Below, one piece after another: positions 143 through 46,184 of a stretch of 46,184 bases of DNA. Origin of the DNA: an uncultured Clostridium sp. Its GTDB lineage: Bacteria > Bacillota_I > Bacilli_A > RF39 > UBA660. The position numbers and the translations under genes are program-made. The stretch is taken from contig CAMKPE010000013.1 of the NCBI GenBank assembly GCA_946414595.1, forward strand, positions 1 to 46,184. Direction: 5' to 3'. Position 1 is the first letter of the stretch, and every line of letters starts with the position of its first letter. The notes below the pieces were generated by a model that made no database searches, was not told the origin of the DNA, and saw only the letters and a list, made by a program, of their open reading frames with translations.

Positions 143-502
143 TTACTTTTTCTTGCTGTTATTTATTTTTTGTATGCTTGCTTCAATCCACTTTGGTACC
201 ATACTTTCCAATGTTTTAAAACCATTTTTGGTTTCTTCAATTTGACCATACTTATCATTTTTATATTGAATATCCTTAATAGATAGCTTTATATGGCGTG
301 TTTTTTCATCTATATCTAATACCTTCATCTTAATTGTTTCACCAACAGTTGCATAGTCTGCAACATTCTTTACAAAGTCTTCAGAGATTTCAGATATATG
401 AATCAAACCAGTATAATAATCATCAAGGCTAACAAAAATACCGTATGGTTCAATACCGGTAACAGAACCGGTAACAATTTTATCCTTCTCAAATTTAGTC
501 AT
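143..502 (-). CDS. yugI: S1 RNA-binding domain protein, general stress protein 13 (YugI/CvfD) family
   Basis: A 119-residue protein made of one S1 domain (about residues 6-78, with GSVTGIEPYGIFV and GLIHISEIS, the usual RNA-facing strands) plus a short tail containing GFKTLESMVPKWIE. That tail closely resembles the C-terminus of B. subtilis YugI, and length agrees with the family. Such proteins bind the ribosome or mRNA and influence translation under stress. The open frame continues 58 codons upstream, but that part is hydrophobic and not family-like. I start at the ATG at 500-502, preceded by an AGAGGGTG ribosome site. It diverges from the NifU-like gene across about 100 bp. The C-terminus is basic (NNSKKK). 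Confidence 0.85.
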   Translation of the reverse strand: MTKFEKDKIVTGSVTGIEPYGIFVSLDDYYTGLIHISEISEDFVKNVADYATVGETIKMKVLDIDEKTRHIKLSIKDIQYKNDKYGQIEETKNGFKTLESMVPKWIEASIQKINNSKKK

Positions 503-599
503 TAATACACCCTCTGGTAAGATTATAGCAATAATCAAAAAAATAATCAAATATACTTTACATAAATAAAAACTATTTATATAATTATAGCGGTGATGA

Positions 600-830
600 A
601 TGATGGATATTGAAAAAAGAATTATTGAAGAAATTGATAAAATAAGACCATTTTTACAAAATGATGGTGGCAACATTGAATTTGTAAAATATGAAGATGG
701 GAATGTTTACGTAAAGCTAACTGGTGCTTGCGCTGGTTGTTCACTTATAGATGTTACACTAAAAGAAGGTATTGAAGAAATACTAATTAGTGAAATCCCA
801 GAAATTAAACAAGTAATTAAAATAGATTAA
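600..830 (+). CDS. NifU C-terminal domain Fe-S cluster carrier (YutI/Nfu type)
   Basis: A 76-residue protein that is essentially the Nfu domain. It has the RPFLQNDGGNIEF strand and the cluster-binding CxxC (Cys44 and Cys47 in GACAGCSLI), followed by a helix TLKEGIEEIL. Homodimers of this domain hold a [4Fe-4S] cluster between two CxxC motifs and pass it to client proteins. B. subtilis YutI has the same architecture. Two ATGs are adjacent (600 and 603); the GGTGATG ribosome site fits either. The gene converges with the next one, and the two stops overlap by 14 bp. The window's ferredoxin, Fe-S-type TrpRS and possibly others are plausible clients, which is inference. Confidence 0.9.
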   Translation: MMDIEKRIIEEIDKIRPFLQNDGGNIEFVKYEDGNVYVKLTGACAGCSLIDVTLKEGIEEILISEIPEIKQVIKID

Positions 831-1671
831 TTAAAGAGTATAAATAAGATATATCATTATATCTTTTTTTTATTTCATCAAAGATGATTTTTATACCTTT
901 AAAATATATCTGTAAATTACACTCAATATAATAATAATCAAACCAGTCATAGTCTCTTTTAAAACCAGAAATAAAATAAGAGGGCCATATCAATTCTGAC
1001 AACAACAAAATATAATCATAATAATTAAAACTAAAACTATCAATAATACCTATAAAATCCACTTGTTTCTTTTCAATAAAAAAAATATGTTTAATCAATC
1101 TTGCAACACCTATTCCAAGTGGACCATAATTATTATTCACAGTAATTAAATAATCATGAATAGAATAATTAATATTAAATGACTTTATACAGTTACCATA
1201 ACTTATTAATTCTCTCCCTACAGTTTTTAATAACTGTAATGAAGAAAAAGAAAAGCCAAGAAACATATCAACGTTATATTTTTGGTTTAATTGAGGTTTT
1301 GCACTAAAGTATTTTTCTACAGAAGCTATCTTCTCCTTTTTTAAATAGTAATATGATTCATCAAAATAATTTAAAACATTGGTTTCTTTCATCAAATCAA
1401 CTATCAATTCATTTTTATCGGTATTTATAACATCGTAATAAAACACATATAATATATATTTTTTGTTTTCAAAAAGAGAAAAAGAAAAGCCATATTTATT
1501 ATTTACTACCGCGCAATAACTATTATTTAAAATAACACCTTGGCCTTGCTCATCATATTCTTTTAAATAATATTGATGATTATTATAAAAAAATATCTTT
1601 TTATCTCCTATAGATTTTTTTTCTAAATAAATATCATAGTAATAAATTAAAAAATCTCTAATATCATTCAT
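817..1671 (-). CDS. Hypothetical protein, possibly a degenerate spore-coat kinase-like (YutH/CotS-type) protein
   Basis: A 284-residue, Tyr/Phe/Ile/Asn-rich cytoplasmic protein with no signal peptide or membrane segment. I do not recognise it firmly. Size, a two-lobed look, and position beside a yutI-like gene with yutD and yunB nearby recall YutH, a coat-associated protein with a degenerate kinase fold in Bacillus. I cannot find the kinase catalytic Asp-Phe-Gly or HxxDxxxxN motif, so this remains a context guess. The C-terminal third holds IWPSYF and DYDWFDYYY. The start at 1671 has only a weak ribosome site, and the next in-frame Met is far downstream. The stop overlaps the end of the convergent NifU-like gene. 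Confidence 0.55.
   Translation of the reverse strand: MNDIRDFLIYYYDIYLEKKSIGDKKIFFYNNHQYYLKEYDEQGQGVILNNSYCAVVNNKYGFSFSLFENKKYILYVFYYDVINTDKNELIVDLMKETNVLNYFDESYYYLKKEKIASVEKYFSAKPQLNQKYNVDMFLGFSFSSLQLLKTVGRELISYGNCIKSFNINYSIHDYLITVNNNYGPLGIGVARLIKHIFFIEKKQVDFIGIIDSFSFNYYDYILLLSELIWPSYFISGFKRDYDWFDYYYIECNLQIYFKGIKIIFDEIKKRYNDISYLYSLINLF
846..871 (+). terminator. Terminator of the NifU-like gene
   Basis: Stem AAGATATA / TATATCTT with loop TCAT followed by a run of T on the plus strand. It lies inside the 3' coding end of the convergent gene 817-1671, so the two transcription units interlock here. Confidence 0.75.
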
Positions 1672-1692
1672 ACCACAATATATGAGACAAAT

Positions 1693-1721
1693 AAAAAAGT
1701 ATCATTAAAAATGATACTTTT
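1693..1721 (-). terminator. Terminator of the DUF1292/repeat-protein operon
   Basis: On the minus strand AAAAGTATCAT, a five-base loop, ATGATACTTTT, then a T run, 12 bp after the stop of the repeat protein. Confidence 0.9.
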
Positions 1722-1733
1722 ATTATATTTCTT

Positions 1734-4373
1734 TTAAGCAGCTTTCTTAGCTCCCATAACAGCATTATCACTATATCTTAAGAAGTCAAATTCTTTTGAT
1801 CCTTCTAATTGATCTAATAAAAATGTTAATTGCTCTTTTGTACTAGGCTTCTTTGCTTCACCATTTCCTCTAGCCATTCTAATATCAAGATTTTGTTTTT
1901 GAGTAGAACGTAATTTCAAAGGTCTTGATGGTGAATAAATGCTACAAAATCTATCATCTACATCAAATGTAGTGCAGTTCAAACCTTGTAATGATGGAAT
2001 TGTATTATTTGTTACGGATTGAGTTTTTCTCATATCAATCAATTGTTTAGCTTGATCAACGCTTCCATTAACAACATATCGTTTTTCTTCTTCTCCAACT
2101 ATTCTTAAAGCTTGGTCTTTTGCACCACGTCTAATTCTATTTGTTTCATAATTATTTATTAAATTTTGAGCTTGAACAACAGCTCCTCTAACTGCTCTAT
2201 ATTTTTCTTCTTCTCCAACTATTCTTAAAGCCTGATCTTTTGCTCCTTTAACTACTCTTCTAGTTTCTTCAGCATTAACGATTTGTCTAGCTTGCTCTTT
2301 TGCACCAGTTATTACATTATCATCGACTTTTTTCTGTGGAGATGATTTACTAATAAGATTCTTTGCTTGCTCTACTGAACCTGCAATTACTCTATTTGTT
2401 TCATCTTGTGCTACAAATGCTTGAGCCTGTTCTAATGAACCAGCAACGATTTTATTTCTTTCATCAGCATTTACTAATTCTTCTGCTTGTGCTTTTGCAC
2501 CAGTTAACAAATCATCACTTTGAACATTATGATATGCCATTTGGCTTACTAAATCTTCCATAGAATTTGAATCAGAAGCAATATCTATAATATCTACTTC
2601 TTCCTGTACTGGTGTTTTAGATGCTTGTTGTCCAATTAGATTTTTCGCTTGTTCTACTGAACCAGCAACTACCCTGTTTGTTTCATCTTGTGCAGCAAAC
2701 ATTTGTGCTTGTTCCATAGATCCTTTAACAACAGCAACTTTTTCTTCTTCGTTAATTATATTTTGAGCTTGTTCCACTGAACCAGCAATCACTCTATTTG
2801 TTTCATCTTGTGCTACTAGCATTTGAGCTTGTTCTTCTGCACCAGCAATTACATTATTCTTCTCTAATTCGTTTTGTTGTTGCATTTCTGCTTGTTTTTT
2901 CATGAAATCATTTAGTGTTCTTAACATTTTTGCTTGTTCAAGTGAACCTGCTTTTATCATATTAAGTTCATCTTGATCAGCAAACATCTGTGCTTGTTCT
3001 TTAGAACCAATAATTATTTTATTTCTTTCATCTTCATCAACTAATCTTTGAGCTTCTTCTAATGATCCTCTTGCAAGAATCTTATTCTCATCTATTTGTG
3101 TCTTGATTTGTTGAGCTTGGTCTAATGCACCTAAAGATATAACAGTATCTTCAACATCATCACCTAAAGTTACGTTATCAGCCTCAATAACATCAAGCGC
3201 CATAGATTCTTGAGCTTTTTTCTCATTATCTTTTCGTTCTGCTTCCATAATACGATCATAAGAATCTTGTTGATTCATTGTAAACAAGTAATCTTTATGT
3301 ACCAAGTCTTCCATAGTTTGAACAACATCAGGATCTTGATAATGGCTTTCCATTTCAGCAGCTTTTATTTCATATTCCTCTTCAGTTAATGGTTTAGTAT
3401 ATCCAACTATACCTTCAATTAAATCTTGGAATTCTGTATTTTTTCTTTCAAATGTTGGTTTTTTCTTCTTTAATTTAGTATCAATACCAGAAATACTAGC
3501 CAACATACTTAATAGATTATCTTCTCTTTCTTCTAATCCTGAATCAAATGGAGAAGAAAATCCATTTGGACTTGATCTAAGTTTTCTTAAATCTTCCAAT
3601 TCGTCATTTATTTGTGCTAATAATGATCTATGTGAGTAATCAGCAGCAGATACACCTTTTTCAACAGGTGCAACAAAAGTTTCACTTTCTTCTGACTCTC
3701 TTACAGGTTGGCTATTCATTGCTACTGTGACATCATCAACAGTATTAACTCCTGAATTCTCAAATACCTTTCTCCAACTAGGTATTTTTGCAGGAATTTG
3801 TTCATTTATAAGACCATTTTCAGCCAAATACTGATCAACCACATCGGATTTATCAGCTAATTTATATAAATCTATGCTATTTAATATTCTACAATATACT
3901 TTTGAATAAAGAGTAGGAACACTTAAAGCTTTTGGTAAATATTTAGGTTTAACATTAACACCGAAGTGTTCACCTAATGTACCAAAATTACCATCTATTT
4001 TTCGAGCATCAACAAAAAGTCCAGCCATTCTTTTCTTGGCTACACCTACGCTTGATATTTGAGCAACTTGTTCATCTTCTTTGATTAATGACAATCTACG
4101 TGCGTCATCAACAGGAGTTTGTACCTTTTTCTCTGCTTCTGTGATGCTAGCTCTAGCTTCATTTTCTGCAGCAGCAACTTCAGCACTTACAATTGCGTTT
4201 CTTAATTCAGTATAAACATCATTATAATTTTGAATACTCTTCAAAATATCATTATGTTTAAATGACACAATTGTAGGTTCTGTGATTTTTGCCTTACTAG
4301 GTCTTTTACCACTGATTTGCTCTACTCTATTTCCTTTTGTCATGACCTGAGTTAGTTCCAAAATATTGCTCAT
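1734..4373 (-). CDS. Large cytoplasmic repeat protein with 16 GSxEQAQ-type 20-residue repeats
   Basis: 879 residues, highly charged, with no signal peptide or membrane segment. Residues 1-400 form a unique region: a helical Ala/Glu-rich stretch (AEVAAAENEARASITEAEKK) followed by apparently globular and low-complexity parts. From about residue 410 to 785 there are 16 copies of a unit starting G[AS]xxQA, typically 20 residues apart (for example GSVEQAQNI then INEEEKVAVVK). The C-terminal 90 residues are unique and end GAKKAA. The repeat predicts a regular alpha-helical array or coiled coil. It recurs in the proteins at 35206-37242 and 42801-46184. The start ATG has GGAGGTGAC seven bases ahead. 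It follows the DUF1292 gene after 28 bp, probably in one operon. No function is known to me; a scaffold or intracellular structural role is only inference. Confidence 0.85.
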   Translation of the reverse strand: MSNILELTQVMTKGNRVEQISGKRPSKAKITEPTIVSFKHNDILKSIQNYNDVYTELRNAIVSAEVAAAENEARASITEAEKKVQTPVDDARRLSLIKEDEQVAQISSVGVAKKRMAGLFVDARKIDGNFGTLGEHFGVNVKPKYLPKALSVPTLYSKVYCRILNSIDLYKLADKSDVVDQYLAENGLINEQIPAKIPSWRKVFENSGVNTVDDVTVAMNSQPVRESEESETFVAPVEKGVSAADYSHRSLLAQINDELEDLRKLRSSPNGFSSPFDSGLEEREDNLLSMLASISGIDTKLKKKKPTFERKNTEFQDLIEGIVGYTKPLTEEEYEIKAAEMESHYQDPDVVQTMEDLVHKDYLFTMNQQDSYDRIMEAERKDNEKKAQESMALDVIEADNVTLGDDVEDTVISLGALDQAQQIKTQIDENKILARGSLEEAQRLVDEDERNKIIIGSKEQAQMFADQDELNMIKAGSLEQAKMLRTLNDFMKKQAEMQQQNELEKNNVIAGAEEQAQMLVAQDETNRVIAGSVEQAQNIINEEEKVAVVKGSMEQAQMFAAQDETNRVVAGSVEQAKNLIGQQASKTPVQEEVDIIDIASDSNSMEDLVSQMAYHNVQSDDLLTGAKAQAEELVNADERNKIVAGSLEQAQAFVAQDETNRVIAGSVEQAKNLISKSSPQKKVDDNVITGAKEQARQIVNAEETRRVVKGAKDQALRIVGEEEKYRAVRGAVVQAQNLINNYETNRIRRGAKDQALRIVGEEEKRYVVNGSVDQAKQLIDMRKTQSVTNNTIPSLQGLNCTTFDVDDRFCSIYSPSRPLKLRSTQKQNLDIRMARGNGEAKKPSTKEQLTFLLDQLEGSKEFDFLRYSDNAVMGAKKAA
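2030..3150 (-). repeat. Coding repeat array, period 60 bp (20 residues)
   Basis: Sixteen units encode GALDQAQ, GSLEEAQ, GSKEQAQ, GSLEQAK, GAEEQAQ, GSVEQAQ, GSMEQAQ, GSVEQAK, GAKAQAE, GSLEQAQ, GSVEQAK, GAKEQAR, GAKDQAL, GAVVQAQ, GAKDQAL and GSVDQAK. Some segments are almost identical in DNA: 30 bases at 2082-2111 recur exactly at 2202-2231, 120 bp away, and 26 bases at 2389-2414 recur at 2791-2816. This points to recent unit duplication. The register is broken by a non-repeat insert at about 2520-2640 (residues near IIDIASDSNSMEDLV). Confidence 0.9.
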
Positions 4374-4401: not shown

Positions 4402-4671
4402 TTATTCAACCGGTTTAGATAATTCCTTTAATACGTTTTTTACTCTTGTCCATTCTTCTTCACTATCTACGCTTCCAAGTCTTGGTTCTCCAGTACTTCT
4501 ATCAACTGATGCAACATAAATAGTTATATTACCATTATCATCAGTCTCATTCTTTGTATAAACCATATACTCAGTATTAGTGTCAGTAAACTTAAAAGAT
4601 AGTAATACTTCTACTTCATCTATTGATCCATCTTCTAAAACTATTGACATTATTTTTTTCTCTTCGTCCAT
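4402..4671 (-). CDS. DUF1292 family protein (YrzB-like)
   Basis: An 89-residue acidic protein. The features are IVLEDGSIDEVEVLLSFKF near the start, then EYMVYT, a strand pair with TIYVASVD, and a C-terminal helix EEEWTRVKNVLKEL. This arrangement is typical of DUF1292, a small family found across Bacillota that usually sits near ruvX/udk-type housekeeping genes. Its function is not established. Here it lies directly upstream of the large repeat protein and probably shares its transcript, an unusual neighbour. The ribosome site is AAGGAGG about eight bases before ATG. A recognisable promoter lies just upstream (4700-4727). Confidence 0.85.
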   Translation of the reverse strand: MDEEKKIMSIVLEDGSIDEVEVLLSFKFTDTNTEYMVYTKNETDDNGNITIYVASVDRSTGEPRLGSVDSEEEWTRVKNVLKELSKPVE

Positions 4672-4699: not shown

Positions 4700-4727
4700 A
4701 TTTTATCACATTTACAATACTTTTCAA
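4700..4727 (-). promoter_or_regulatory. Sigma-A type promoter for the DUF1292/repeat-protein operon
   Basis: On the minus strand: TTGAAA, a 16-base spacer, and the extended -10 TGATAAAAT. The distance to the DUF1292 start codon is about 30 bases, which leaves a short leader with the AAGGAGG site. Confidence 0.6.
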
Positions 4728-4737
4728 TATTAATTGC

Positions 4738-5019
4738 TTATTTTTTTATTTTTTCAAGCAAAAAATATTTGCAGTTAAATGCACAATAATTTTGGATATA
4801 TTCATCTAAATAACTCAACTTATTTATAGCAGTCGCACTTTTGTTATCATTGCTATAAAATCCCTTTAATCTCAACTTTCCATATGCATAATCACCAAAT
4901 ATGTAATCATATGGTTTGAAATAATCAGTAGCTAGTTCACTTAAAACCTCATAGTCTAAGCAATCGCTTTCATCTTTTATTACGTTATATTCTTCTTCTA
5001 ACAATTGTATTTTCTTCAT
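4738..5019 (-). CDS. yutD: YutD family protein (DUF1027)
   Basis: A 93-residue protein matching YutD almost end to end. KPYDYIFGDYAYGKLRLKGF corresponds to the family core KYDYIVGDWGYGQLRLKGF, followed by YLDEYIQNYCAFNCKYFLL, in which the two Cys (NYCAFNC) are conserved. The family's biochemical role is unknown; it is widespread in Bacilli. The start has GGTGATAG upstream. It lies just downstream of yunB on the same strand. In B. subtilis yutD, yunB and yutI map to the same general neighbourhood, so this looks like a remnant of conserved order. Confidence 0.88.
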   Translation of the reverse strand: MKKIQLLEEEYNVIKDESDCLDYEVLSELATDYFKPYDYIFGDYAYGKLRLKGFYSNDNKSATAINKLSYLDEYIQNYCAFNCKYFLLEKIKK

Positions 5020-5051: not shown

Positions 5052-5750
5052 CTAATAAATATTAGAATTTTTGCTAAACCCAGAAATATAATAATTAGGA
5101 ATTGTTCCATTAACTAAGCTTATAAAAATAGGTATTTTATTCTCAATTGTTACTTTTTTGTTTATAAAAGGCATCGTTATTTGCTCTGATACTCTTATAT
5201 TTATATAGATACTAACCAGAGCATTGTTAATACCATATTCAACAACATCAGTTGATACAAACGATTCAAACTCACCTGTTAAAGAGATTTTAATAGGAAT
5301 TTTTGGTCCAAGATTTGATAAAAGGTAATTATCAAAGAATATTCCACTTGGTATTTCTAAAACAATTCCATCTTTACCATTTGCTGTTGATGTCAAAATA
5401 TTCTCTCTAATATTAATTTTAGAAAGATCTCCATACTCCAACATATTAAACATATTGTAAATTCTATTAGTTATAGAATTTATCAAATCATTTACAACAC
5501 CCGTATCATAAATGATATTTTTGATTTCATTTGAGTCATCCTTCACAATATCATATATATCATTGGCATAATAATTAACTTTTTCGCGCACATAAGCATT
5601 ATTAACTATATATTTTGTTATTTTGCTTGCTATCATTAGTCCATATTCATTAATCTTTTTACTCGAAACAAGATTAATAAAAACAATATTAAAAACAGCT
5701 ACCATCAATAAAAAAATATTAACAATGATTAACTTAGTTTTAAACTTCAT
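5052..5750 (-). CDS. yunB: Sporulation protein YunB
   Basis: 232 residues with one N-terminal membrane segment (about residues 6-26, IIVNIFLLMVAVFNIVFINL) and an extracytoplasmic domain. Family hallmarks seen are NIRENILTSTANGK, a Gly/Pro-rich PSGIFFDNYLLSNLGPKIPI segment with variations, and VEYGINNALVSIYINI. YunB is a SigE-dependent protein needed for proper spore formation in B. subtilis; the mechanism is unclear. The open frame begins 13 codons earlier, but GGTGATAGG immediately precedes the ATG at 5748-5750, so I start there. It indicates a sporulating organism. It may be co-transcribed with yutD, 32 bp downstream. Confidence 0.85.
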   Translation of the reverse strand: MKFKTKLIIVNIFLLMVAVFNIVFINLVSSKKINEYGLMIASKITKYIVNNAYVREKVNYYANDIYDIVKDDSNEIKNIIYDTGVVNDLINSITNRIYNMFNMLEYGDLSKINIRENILTSTANGKDGIVLEIPSGIFFDNYLLSNLGPKIPIKISLTGEFESFVSTDVVEYGINNALVSIYINIRVSEQITMPFINKKVTIENKIPIFISLVNGTIPNYYISGFSKNSNIY

Positions 5751-5773
5751 CCTATCACCATTAATATATATAT

Positions 5774-5803
5774 GAAAAAAAGTTATCACATAATGATAAC
5801 TTA
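5774..5803 (-). terminator. Terminator after the 5801-6649 gene
   Basis: Minus-strand stem AAGTTATCA, loop TTATG, TGATAACTT followed by T7. It overlaps the stop codon of the upstream gene. Confidence 0.9.
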
Positions 5804-31182: not shown

Positions 31183-31308
31183 AAATATCACCATAATAAT
31201 TATACTATATTTTTAAATAAATTAAAACTTTTCTTTCAAAAATAGGTTCTAATCATCAACATTATCATTAAATAGAATATTCTATATTAGATAAAAGGAG
31301 TGAATTAT

Positions 31309-31668
31309 ATGGATAATAATCATTTAATAGATGTTCTTAGATTAATTAATAATTTGCAAAAAGAAGCTACTATTCCAACAAACTCATCTTGTACTAAGCC
31401 TCTTTTAGGAAATATAGATTCTTTTAACACAAGACCAGTTACTTTCTATTCTTGTAATAATAGTTTATTAACTGTTAATTATTATGTAGATAATGTTTTA
31501 AATACATCTAGCGTATTTAGAATTGAGGATGTTAATAACTCTTGTGTAACTGTAAGGCTTTTAGCACAAGATGAAGATACTTATACTGCAACGAACGAAT
31601 TTGCCACAATAAACATTAATTGTATATGTGCAATTAGATGTTTAAATGATATTAATTTAACTATTTAG
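31309..31668 (+). CDS. CotY/CotZ-like spore coat (exosporium) protein 1
   Basis: 119 residues, six Cys. It shares the CotY/CotZ-type layout: an N-terminal helix (LIDVLRLINNLQKEA), a SxxCxxPLLG element, VTFYSCNNS, VFRIEDVNNSCVTVRLL, and the terminal ININCICAIRCL. The Cys positions are 28, 49, 79, 105, 107 and 111. Family members self-assemble into disulfide-linked two-dimensional arrays in the outer spore coat. The ORF can begin nine bases earlier at GTG, but AAAAGGAG (31295-31300) is correctly spaced for the ATG at 31309. It is the first gene of a pair transcribed toward the terminator at 32046. A sporulation promoter is expected, but I could not match one convincingly. Confidence 0.82.
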   Translation: MDNNHLIDVLRLINNLQKEATIPTNSSCTKPLLGNIDSFNTRPVTFYSCNNSLLTVNYYVDNVLNTSSVFRIEDVNNSCVTVRLLAQDEDTYTATNEFATININCICAIRCLNDINLTI

Positions 31669-31681
31669 AAAGGAATTAAAT

Positions 31682-32047
31682 ATGAATAATAATTGTATTT
31701 CAAATATATTAGAAAACATTTTATTACTTCAAGAACGTAGATGTAGAAATGGTGTTGGATGTGCTAAAGAAGTTTTAGGGGATACTTTAGAAACTGCTAA
31801 CACAAGACCAATAAATTTATATACATGTTGCAATAATGCTATATGGACTATGCCATATGATTATCAAGGAACAACTGGTGAATCTACTTTCTTTAGAATT
31901 GAAAGTGTAAATAATAACACAGCAACATTTAGAATATTAATTAATAATGCAGGAGTTTATACTGCAACAGATAATTTCTTTATCATAGATCTTGACTATG
32001 TATCATGTATTAAATGTTTACAAGATACTACAATAACTACAATATAA
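31682..32047 (+). CDS. CotY/CotZ-like spore coat (exosporium) protein 2
   Basis: 121 residues, homologous to the preceding gene: ENILLLQERRCRNGVGCAKE, then a PINLYTCCNNA, FFRIESVNNNTATFRIL and DYVSCIKCL. Its Cys distribution differs (an extra CC pair and an early RRC/GC pair, but fewer at the very end), so the two could form complementary partners in one lattice. The gap from the previous gene is 13 bases, ribosome site AGAAAGGA. Tandem duplicates of CotY/Z genes are common in spore formers (cotY and cotZ in B. subtilis). Confidence 0.85.
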   Translation: MNNNCISNILENILLLQERRCRNGVGCAKEVLGDTLETANTRPINLYTCCNNAIWTMPYDYQGTTGESTFFRIESVNNNTATFRILINNAGVYTATDNFFIIDLDYVSCIKCLQDTTITTI

Positions 32048-33509: not shown

Positions 33510-33518
33510 CGCTTTTAT
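33492..33518 (+). terminator. Bidirectional terminator between the SEDS and serpin genes
   Basis: AAAAGCGTC, loop TTTAT, GACGCTTTT; T/A runs on both sides allow termination in both directions. The serpin stop codon is in the right arm. Confidence 0.88.
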
Positions 33519-35152
33519 TCAAGTATTCCTTGACTGTTTGGTTCTTTATAATCTGCTCCTTCGTAAACTGCTCCAACAAACCAAACTTCTTTAGTATTCT
33601 TATCTCTTATTATATACATAAATGGTTTATCAAATGTTAAATCAATCTTTTCAACAGGCACTTCAAATAAGTAATCAAAATCACATGCTGCATTTCCTAA
33701 TCCTCCCATTTGAGTTGCTGCTGCTGCTTTAATTCCTTCGTTTGAGAATTCGATGTTTGCCTTATGAGCGGCATCACCAATATACTCTTTTGATGATGAA
33801 ATCTTAGATAAATCAGCTTTATTTTTATCAAATACATCAACAATTCCCATAGATTTTAAATCTTCTTCTAAATCAAGTTCATAATCATAATTGAATAAAG
33901 GAATAGTTCCATATACTTCAGTAATTACTCCATCTTTAAATGAATCAAGTTTAATAGATTTAATACCTTCAAGTAATGTACTTAATTTCTTAGAATTTGT
34001 ATTCTTTACATATTCATCTAATGAAACATTCTTTGGCATAATTGCAATATACTCAAGAGTTGTTTCTCCATATGTTTTAAGATCTTTTGCAAATACTTTT
34101 TCATCTTCTGTATCTAAGAATCTAAAGTCAGTAGAACTATTAACTATTCCATAGTTTGTTTTAAGATCTTTTAAGAATTGTGTTTGAATTTCTTCAACTG
34201 ATTGAGTATAACCACAAACATCTTCTTTTAAGAATTTTTCATATTCTTCAGCAATTTTTTTCTTAATATTTTCTTCACCAAGATCTTTTATAATATCGTA
34301 TCTATTTGCAACAGCAGTAAAACTTACTGCTTTTGTGTTGTTCTTACCATTAAATGTTAATCTTACATAACCAGTATTAACTAATCCTGATATACCATTG
34401 AAGTAGTTTTCATGTAGGAACTCTTGACTATAACCCATTATAGGATGAATTATTTTAACCCATTCCATATCAATTGCTAATGCATTTATTAAAATGAAAT
34501 CTTTATCATTAACATTATCATCAGTAAATAAATCTTTTATTAATCCAAAAGTTTTATCACTAACCCATTTATTTAAGTTAGCAGCAGTACTAAATGAATC
34601 ATATCCAATTTCTGCTCCATATCTATCTTTTAATGTATCTACATAAGTTTTTAAAACTTGATTTTTAAAATCATCTTTTATAAATAATACATTTGCAAAA
34701 GACATATTTGTATTATTCTCATATTTCTTTGCCTTATAATCTCCAAGAACTGCTTCAATTTGTCCATGAGAATCACCATCAGTACCTTCATTTAACATTA
34801 ATAAAGCATACTTAATTGAAAGTGGTGAATAAACAATATTCTTATCTTTTATTTCTTTCTTTAAGAAATAAATATCAAAATCTTGTAACTCATTACCTTG
34901 TAAAGTATATTCTGACTTATACTCTTTGTTTTTAGTTTCTTTTTTATCTTCTTTCTTATCTCCACCTTTAAAGATTAAGAAATAACATAATAATACAATT
35001 ACTGCTATTACTACTAACCCTATTAGGCCATAAATTAACCATTTATTCCCCTTTTTTCCTGTGTTGACTGCTGGTACAGTTTCTTCTTGTACTACGTTTT
35101 CCTGTACTGCATTTTCTTGTACTTTTTCTTCTTGTACGTTGTTTTCTTCCAT
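33515..35152 (-). CDS. Membrane-anchored serpin (serine protease inhibitor family)
   Basis: 545 residues. A VQEx-repeat head (VQEEKVQENAVQENVVQEE), one membrane helix (39-61) and a charged linker precede a serpin domain (about 90-530). Signature points are IVYSPLSIKYALLMLNEG (helix hA/s6B region), NAL/WVKxxxP-type shutter residues, and the reactive-centre hinge NEGIKAAAAT (471-480). The PROSITE-like end signature is LTFDKPFMYII followed by FVGAVY. The hinge has Ala at P12-P9 and so could insert into beta-sheet A, as in inhibitory serpins, though P14-P13 are Ile-Lys instead of the usual Thr/Ser-Glu. The predicted P1 region is Gly-Asn-Ala. N-terminal anchoring places it on the outside of the cell, where gut proteases may be the targets (inference). 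Ribosome site AAGGAAG. Confidence 0.93.
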   Translation of the reverse strand: MEENNVQEEKVQENAVQENVVQEETVPAVNTGKKGNKWLIYGLIGLVVIAVIVLLCYFLIFKGGDKKEDKKETKNKEYKSEYTLQGNELQDFDIYFLKKEIKDKNIVYSPLSIKYALLMLNEGTDGDSHGQIEAVLGDYKAKKYENNTNMSFANVLFIKDDFKNQVLKTYVDTLKDRYGAEIGYDSFSTAANLNKWVSDKTFGLIKDLFTDDNVNDKDFILINALAIDMEWVKIIHPIMGYSQEFLHENYFNGISGLVNTGYVRLTFNGKNNTKAVSFTAVANRYDIIKDLGEENIKKKIAEEYEKFLKEDVCGYTQSVEEIQTQFLKDLKTNYGIVNSSTDFRFLDTEDEKVFAKDLKTYGETTLEYIAIMPKNVSLDEYVKNTNSKKLSTLLEGIKSIKLDSFKDGVITEVYGTIPLFNYDYELDLEEDLKSMGIVDVFDKNKADLSKISSSKEYIGDAAHKANIEFSNEGIKAAAATQMGGLGNAACDFDYLFEVPVEKIDLTFDKPFMYIIRDKNTKEVWFVGAVYEGADYKEPNSQGILE

Positions 35153-45800: not shown

Positions 45801-46184
45801 GATATTTCTCTTTTCTGCTTCATCTTTAGGTGTATATAATTCTTTAGTTTCTTTATTAAAGATTTCAAGTGGTCCATTACTATTAGATATTTTATATTGT
45901 TTTGTATACTCAGCAAGTTGTTCAAAACTTACTGTTGTATCTACTGCATTAACCTTTTCTTTATCTTCAATTGCTCCAACTAATCCATTAAATAATGCAT
46001 CTATCTTTGCTTTCATATCTTCAGCAACTTCATTAGTTGGTTTCTTTTCTTTTTCAATAATACTTAAAGCTTGATCTTTAGCTCCAGCAATTACATTTGT
46101 TCTTTCGCTTTGAATTGCTGCTTCTTCCTTAGCTCCTTTAATAACGTTTGTTCTTTCACTTTGAATTGCTGCTTCTTCTTTAGC
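42801..46184 (-). CDS. Very large cytoplasmic repeat protein, N-terminus beyond the window
   Basis: The frame is open to the window edge: the 168 bases from 46017 to 46184 add 56 codons to the internal Met at 46014-46016, so this is a 5'-partial gene of more than 1,127 residues. The extra part shows two and a half units of AAIQSERTNVI[AK]GAKxE/DQA, a 17-residue form of the repeat in 1734-4373. The rest has a duplicated roughly 70-residue helical module, a duplicated roughly 130-residue module, an amphipathic stretch near KLKMLVSTIKDMILNIF, an acidic PVE/VLPxxE-rich linker, and a C-terminal domain like both ends of 35206-37242. No membrane segment. Function unknown. Confidence 0.82.
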   Translation of the reverse strand, partial: AKEEAAIQSERTNVIKGAKEEAAIQSERTNVIAGAKDQALSIIEKEKKPTNEVAEDMKAKIDALFNGLVGAIEDKEKVNAVDTTVSFEQLAEYTKQYKISNSNGPLEIFNKETKELYTPKDEAEKRNIEFAYYWGVMVGKNDQNANETVNMDFAFGEEGKKLFDIMDVHFKESLQRDIDIDFESLERQFVDSKVPHSEEIFDSLFKTDPLRQYVTQYYKESLGMEVDKTDEFDKRMSKEYAEYRKLFDLNASRMLSETGIQRLNVLKNKKGPIEEMEKANEELYQSLFNRMASIDNIEELDEEYREKQEEYNRLLRENNTEYQDAIREFEVPEDMLIPGKENNFYDILDTVKEREGEINLSEVTRELLDYIALDKERVGGELTREQEDEIINLVQKNEPSRILEMSRLSCNSDRFIVSMELDEIQETYKNRILDELKRSNTLEATKEPVVEEVKAEEVKEEAKERVNKLNLAKEDRELADYFKLATKGRTKKLTSEEMKRIKGLMDVNERVNTLETSKGSLSTEAYDELYATYKEQLADAINQSALIEVEAEKANAPVKEEAKEEAVVEENKAEIVPSELVGYYSLVKLFEKNAKKYSVEKENGETKIYDSETNIEYNPTRKDEKSTIILGNHWMRSVGISNLLDNAKLYSLLSNACLESYGKEGGLDLASLKEAFIGSGIENADVCFDNLFKDGKAEEIREHVAHISDLSDYEKEHGIVPYNFENMKALTDKYDYDEERGMAVERENPEIAGPTDETALNEIKMGNHLENIFGNHKENNYDSKVFTNGFFAKLKMLVSTIKDMILNIFRVDKYKAIEVMSNVEDGNDFAERVLASEEDVNKMTDYVCSKYQMENPTKDMTFAEEVAKANEAAKTEEINAKEEPKDLIVVEPVVTLTTINGPKDNMTVVNNVEEPKEVLPVEGHVEDKEVDPIKNKLGDEGEVLPVAENERPDEVLPINEPLPTVEKDPIVNDLGGKEETKVGTIDEAIEELTGYMDMTYDFNETRKVPTSIRVFFSNENPSVGEVVFSTGSGSDEFTLFHQSFDQDEIKTKLLPVITSKFAELNNEITKVPAYEVQGRKKNELFYLGGESENLFQMSNASQEMLNLADTLMNNEMKNKQASDTLVL
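46017..46184 (-). repeat. 17-residue GAKEEAAIQSERTNVI repeats at the window edge
   Basis: On the minus strand the codons spell AKEEAAIQSERTNVIK, then GAKEEAAIQSERTNVIA, then GAKDQALSII. The two full units are near-identical in DNA (for example GAAGCAGCAATTCAAAG twice, 51 bp apart). Each is three residues shorter than the 20-residue unit at 2030-3150. The array clearly continues past the window. Confidence 0.88.

Follow-up and report, generated by a model that had tools for sequence, protein, structure and literature searches.

The gene P0001, near one end of the window (the whole stretch of DNA analysed, 46,184 nucleotides), raises the question of what a protein carrying one short element in tandem does in the cell, and how it relates to two further genes, P0002 and P0003, in which an earlier note had recognised the same element. 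P0001 (1734..4373, minus strand) is an open frame of 879 residues with orthologs in all 12 genomes of its genus. We put at about even the chance that it is a cytoplasmic scaffold-type protein of the growth phase, lengthened by a genus-specific helical rod, and that P0002 and P0003 carry compatible rods. The interest of the locus lies in a lineage-specific, putatively rod-forming repeat that was incorporated into an already existing conserved protein and is common to two unrelated genes of a small-genome gut bacterium.

A tandem unit of 20 residues

The array of P0001 lies at 2004..3131 on the minus strand (residues 415-790) and consists of 16 G[AS]xx[QE]A units of period 20 with two spacers, predicted to form a long alpha-helix. 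The 16 copies counted in the earlier note are all present: 15 units follow the strict G[AS]xxQA pattern and one reads GSLEEA, within residues 415-775 and spaced mainly by exactly 20 residues. Composition shuffles of the protein yielded a mean of 0.05 strict units and a maximum of 2, and the sole strong peaks of the autocorrelation, at lags 20 and 40, stood far above the shuffles. The consensus of 124 units is G1 A2 E3 E4 Q5 A6 x M8 L9 xxx N13 xx A16 x L18 V19 x, with Ala6 in 95% of them, an apolar residue at position 9 in 92% and the Gly in 69%. Position 1 is Gly or Ser in most units and is often preceded by Asn; the Gly, which had been described as fixed, gives way to Glu, Arg or Met in a number of orthologs (to Met or Glu in G007 and G011, with the period kept) and is completely lost in some.

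Across the genus, the P0001 orthologs carry about 5 to 18 tandem 20-residue units, homogenised within each species. Since copy number and unit sequence differ among species while both ends of the protein are retained in the ortholog alignment, the array may be read as a spacer. It could instead be a linker that expanded neutrally or under weak selection and was homogenised by slippage and recombination, without a specific structural role. Such an origin would fit the homogenised units, the equivalent region in other genera, which is of low complexity and unalignable, and the several contigs that terminate inside arrays of the P0001-P0003 type. It agrees less well with the apolar and Q-A pattern kept in 12 species with N-terminal regions that share 26-74% identity with that of the P0001 of the window, with the retention of the unit type in three separate genes, or with the prediction of helix rather than disorder for the units. 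We consider neutral expansion unlikely and keep to the spacer reading.

Distribution of the repeat

P0001, P0002 and P0003 gave nothing significant in Pfam, NCBIfam or PDB sequences, and the repeat alone likewise had no significant match there; the gas vesicle GvpC repeat (PF01304) was hit by 2 of 15 repeat blocks, at a non-significant best E of 0.035. Literature searches covering YutD/YunB/DUF1292, the bacterial order and helical repeats likewise turned up nothing about the 20-residue unit. Judged from these comparisons the repeat is previously undescribed, as had been suspected.

A 60-residue profile derived from the orthologs of P0001 and P0003, without any row from P0002, was searched against 395 Bacilli genomes representing 192 genera and matched only the two members of the genus in that sample. 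In the 12 genomes of the genus, the P0001, P0002 and P0003 loci alone matched; the P0002 of this genome was found at 1.1e-8 despite its exclusion, which bears out the claim that one element recurs in three genes. Orthologs of P0002, like those of P0001, occur in 12/12 genus genomes, and P0003 has matches in 10/12, whereas 47 genomes of other genera held no ortholog of P0001 or P0002. By sequence search, the repeat is confined to a single genus of uncultured Bacilli from gut and rumen, among the 192 genera sampled, and the lineage specificity proposed from the window alone is supported.

An older family at a conserved locus

The genus as a whole retains the gene order DacA-RluB-(c7)-YunB-YutD-DUF1292-P0001-YutH-like-YabR. 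In the window, the minus-strand genes for YunB, a sporulation protein (5052..5789; PF09560, 1e-21), YutD (4738..5019; PF06265, 8.4e-24) and a DUF1292 protein (4402..4671; PF06949, E 1.7e-8) precede P0001, the last of them 28 bp upstream of it and probably on the same transcript. On the other side, also on the minus strand, are a YutH-like gene of the bacterial spore kinase family (817..1671) and, at the end of the slot, a gene for a YabR-type S1 RNA-binding protein (143..676; PF00575, 2.3e-18). The genus profile of the YutH-like protein reaches L104:6161 (9.6e-44), which scores 1.7e-13 against TIGR02905, below the family cut-off.

P0001 has a conserved N-terminal region (3174..4373, minus strand; residues about 1-400), of which profile positions 16-85 are common to other genera, and a conserved C-terminal tail (1737..2003, minus strand) with the motif RYxSxxxPSKPI..., mostly ending in AA or VA in the ortholog alignment. 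A profile of the N-terminus drawn from the genus only matched, at 1.1e-6, a 604-residue protein of another genus (G224) that occupies exactly the slot of P0001 and is without the repeat. Extended with this protein, the profile matched proteins in genera g77, g80 and g105 (2.6e-18 to 3.0e-4 and 4.3e-4; given also as 2.8e-8 to 4.3e-4), and all six of the better matches that were inspected lie directly behind YutD or DUF1292. The slot-X proteins of these three genera have no 20-residue repeat and share with P0001 the N-terminal motif KLTGxTxxSLR..., followed by [PR][KR]A[IL]xVP. Two weak matches outside the slot (L173 and L175, E above about 6e-4) were put down to chance, and the slot proteins L104, L107, L108, L109 and L111, which by eye looked similar, are classed as positional equivalents only, since their profile scores are not significant.

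P0001 itself follows YutD/DUF1292, precedes the YutH-like and YabR genes and carries the cross-genus motif. It resembles the slot-X proteins found elsewhere in its bacterial family in its slot after DUF1292, its N-terminal motif and its size range, but their middle is acidic, Pro-rich or heptad-like and lacks 20-residue helical repeats; in the family's other genera, different proteins occupy the slot, frequently of low complexity or fused to DUF1292, a fusion found in some of these genera. Because the same slot and N-terminus recur in relatives without the repeat, P0001 represents a fast-evolving protein found throughout the family, to which the array was added in one genus. P0001 thus belongs to an older family at a conserved locus, with only the array genus-specific, and of the 'new family' announced in the earlier note the undescribed repeat stands and the novelty of P0001 itself does not. 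The slot-X family beside DUF1292, YutD and YunB is an unnoticed fast-evolving family in its own right. We propose that the conserved N-terminal module of P0001 belongs to the slot-X protein encoded after DUF1292, and that the variable middle of that protein may have been replaced or lengthened in this genus by the tandem units.

Among P0001 orthologs and certain slot proteins, the C-terminus is mostly AA or VA (KKAA, KLAA, RVAA, RRVA), which recalls C-terminal degradation tags.

P0002 and P0003

P0002 (35206..37254, minus strand; 682 residues) has an end domain at both ends and a helical segment of GA/QA type at about residues 396-470, with one strict unit (GAEDQA) and about three to four looser ones. 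The loose copies reported there, about four, were recovered; their period is 21 (autocorrelation lags 21 and 42), not the 20 that had been given. The window holds the C-terminal 1,127 residues of P0003 (42801..46184, minus strand), truncated by the contig end, with a C-terminal end domain and GAKEEA units at the edge. These units are indeed of 17 residues (51 bp, GAKEEAAIQSERTNVIK), in about 2.1 copies according to TRF. The 5' half of the gene, which was split by the assembly, sits on contig C9 of the same genome (G000): positions 46130-46184 of the window are identical over 55 bp to C9 1-55, in the correct orientation and inside the 51-bp tandem repeat, and each half of the gene, compared separately, aligns with the corresponding half of a single G006 frame of 2,489 residues. 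The full P0003 would have about 2,190 residues, so that 'very large' was an understatement in its case, while P0001 and P0002 are large and not giant. The P0003 orthologs of G001, G003 and G011 have the unit in a 20-residue form.

P0002 and P0003 each start and finish with a related end domain; profile comparisons scored P0002-C against P0003-C at 95%, P0002-N against P0003-C at 92% and P0003-N against an internal copy at 97%. The two are related beyond the repeat, through a separate end domain, and P0001 has in common with them only the helical unit. In P0001, in P0002 and in that part of P0003 which the window covers, no hydrophobic segment reached the length of a membrane helix, and 30% of the residues of P0001 are charged; the cytoplasmic location proposed for the three proteins fits their sequences.

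A predicted continuous helix

Five consecutive P0001 units, modelled with AlphaFold2 from a shallow alignment made up largely of shifted copies of the block itself, came out as one unbroken helix of 98 residues (the best model reached a pLDDT of 82, the remaining four 58-66). The model of full-length P0001 shows residues 415-580 as one helix and long helices overall, at a low-confidence pLDDT of 42, and was too poor to use beyond this helical trend. On these models the units most likely form long helical rods.

The stacked alpha-solenoid suggested in the earlier note, if Gly-1 were the turn between helices of 15 residues, would be in keeping with the Gly or Ser at position 1, often following Asn, as a possible helix end. 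It is nevertheless very unlikely: the prediction is one unbroken helix, several orthologs have Glu, Arg or Met instead of the Gly and keep the period, 20 residues are short for a helix-turn-helix repeat, and there is no match to a known repeat family of the TPR/HEAT/ARM kind. A Foldseek search of the repeat model found no match in the PDB either, which says little in the case of a single helix.

As for the kind of rod, a straight helix turns by 200 degrees over 20 residues (20 x 100 degrees modulo 360). The period of P0001 therefore does not return successive units to one face of the helix, and its repeat is not a canonical two-stranded coiled coil; accordingly, P0001 shows no 7-residue apolar period, and the period of 21 in P0002 is compatible with heptads. 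The apolar patches of the P0001 rod would alternate on opposite faces, which would suit packing among several rods better than a plain two-stranded coil.

Promoters and the spore coat

Proteins of the spore coat or of coat morphogenesis, lineage-specific and comparable to the large repetitive mother-cell proteins found elsewhere, offer another reading of P0001 and perhaps of P0002 and P0003. We initially preferred it on account of the YunB, YutH, CotZ, SigG and SpoIIGA neighbours, and the richness of the P0001 neighbourhood in spore genes still speaks against the scaffold reading. P0001 lies between YunB/YutD and the YutH-like gene, CotZ-type genes and sigG are near P0002, sigG is near P0003, and another large protein adjoins spoIIGA-sigE. 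The genome carries SpoIIGA and SpoIVA, the latter present also in nearly all relatives, which fits RF39-type orders as described (PMC10868615). In B. subtilis, YutH is controlled by sigma-E and packaged into the coat (PMC2860764).

The promoters tell against this reading. A sigma-A-type promoter, TTGAAA-N16-TAAAAT, precedes the DUF1292-P0001 pair at 4700..4727 (minus strand), and all 12 orthologous upstream regions have TTGAAA or a near variant, a spacer of 16-18 bases and TAaAAT, against a shuffled mean of 0.09 of 12; none of the 12 has a CATAT-type box. Boxes of this type resemble sigma-E/K -10 sites. They were found by a strict pattern at 8/12 YunB genes and 2/8 YutH-like genes, with more by eye, and the YutH-like gene of the window has its own CATATATT box at 1677-1684. 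For YunB, the box stands just upstream in most orthologs. In most genomes the boxes of both genes lie behind terminators that divide the units, such as the terminator-like hairpin and T run that separate P0001 from the YutH-like gene (1692..1718, minus strand), with similar hairpins in orthologs. Extended -10 boxes precede P0002 in 5/8 and P0003 in 5/7 regions (expected, 0.8 and 0.5). As the orthologous regions are related, all these counts represent conservation and not independent events. The contrast between a sigma-A-type promoter in 12/12 genomes and the CATAT boxes of the flanking spore genes makes expression of P0001 in the growth phase likelier than use in the coat. Sporulation genes, moreover, occur family-wide and the repeats in one genus only, and P0001 is related to YutH/BSK, CotZ and YunB by adjacency or proximity of genes in a sporulation-gene-bearing organism, not by homology, and differs from YunB and YutH in promoter type. 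The sigma-A-like promoters of the three genes lowered the coat reading to an improbable one, which remains the main rival to a scaffold.

As to the great abundance once supposed, P0001 ranked 114th of 195 ORFs in codon adaptation, P0002 62nd and the window part of P0003 22nd; codon usage does not suggest that P0001 is abundant.

In most genomes of the genus, the terminator hairpin runs into the yunB CATAT-type box, and its T-run overlaps the promoter.

Possible assembly of the rods

Under the scaffold reading, the units would make up straight helical rods, by which the two conserved ends of P0001 would be spaced or cross-linked; P0002 and P0003, a separate pair with a common end domain, would carry the same kind of rod, and their rods would probably pack against that of P0001. 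The P0001 units are slightly closer to P0003 and P0002 units of the same genome than to those of other genomes (10/720 and 137/20,000 permutations, kinship ignored), a weak test whose outcome agrees with co-assembly. Since the units of P0003 and P0002 have 17 and 21 residues in this genome and those of P0001 have 20, a common lattice is not obvious. It seems quite improbable that all three co-assemble through matching helical units into a genus-specific intracellular filament or scaffold, a cytoskeletal element with no known relatives. If the rods do co-assemble, this uncultured genus would possess an internal scaffold of its own.

Bacterial helical rod and coiled-coil scaffolds are likewise cytoplasmic and charged, with long predicted helices, Ala/Leu/Ile stripes, Asn within the apolar stripe and variable repeat number, and the period of 21 in P0002 equals three heptads; the period of 20 in P0001 is no multiple of a heptad, and the sequences match no described family. 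Attachment-organelle scaffolds of Mycoplasma (HMW1/HMW2/P65 type), from relatives of the Bacilli, are also large, lineage-restricted and cytoplasmic, but Pfam scans revealed no similarity to P0001-P0003 and the likeness is one of analogy only.

Genes around P0002 and P0003

The CotZ-type spore coat genes near P0002 are a tandem pair (31300-32047) conserved in that position, the first matching PF10612 at 7.7e-10. P0002 is adjoined by a gene for a serpin-like protein (by eye) with an N-terminal membrane helix (33515-35152), which did not cluster with genes of the relatives examined. Two small WXG100-like proteins (L079:2894-3549) and further secretion-type genes, recognised by eye, lie 5' of the P0003 gene. 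The large protein beside spoIIGA-sigE has 1,364 residues and one likely membrane helix (L082:6447-10541, contig C5 of G000); its gene is followed downstream by a deacetylase-like gene, spoIIGA and sigE, and at least five genomes of the genus retain it. The protein has a helical module of about 80 residues in common with P0003, and it is preceded in 5/5 loci examined by a 778-residue surface-type protein with internal repeats (L082:4094-6430).
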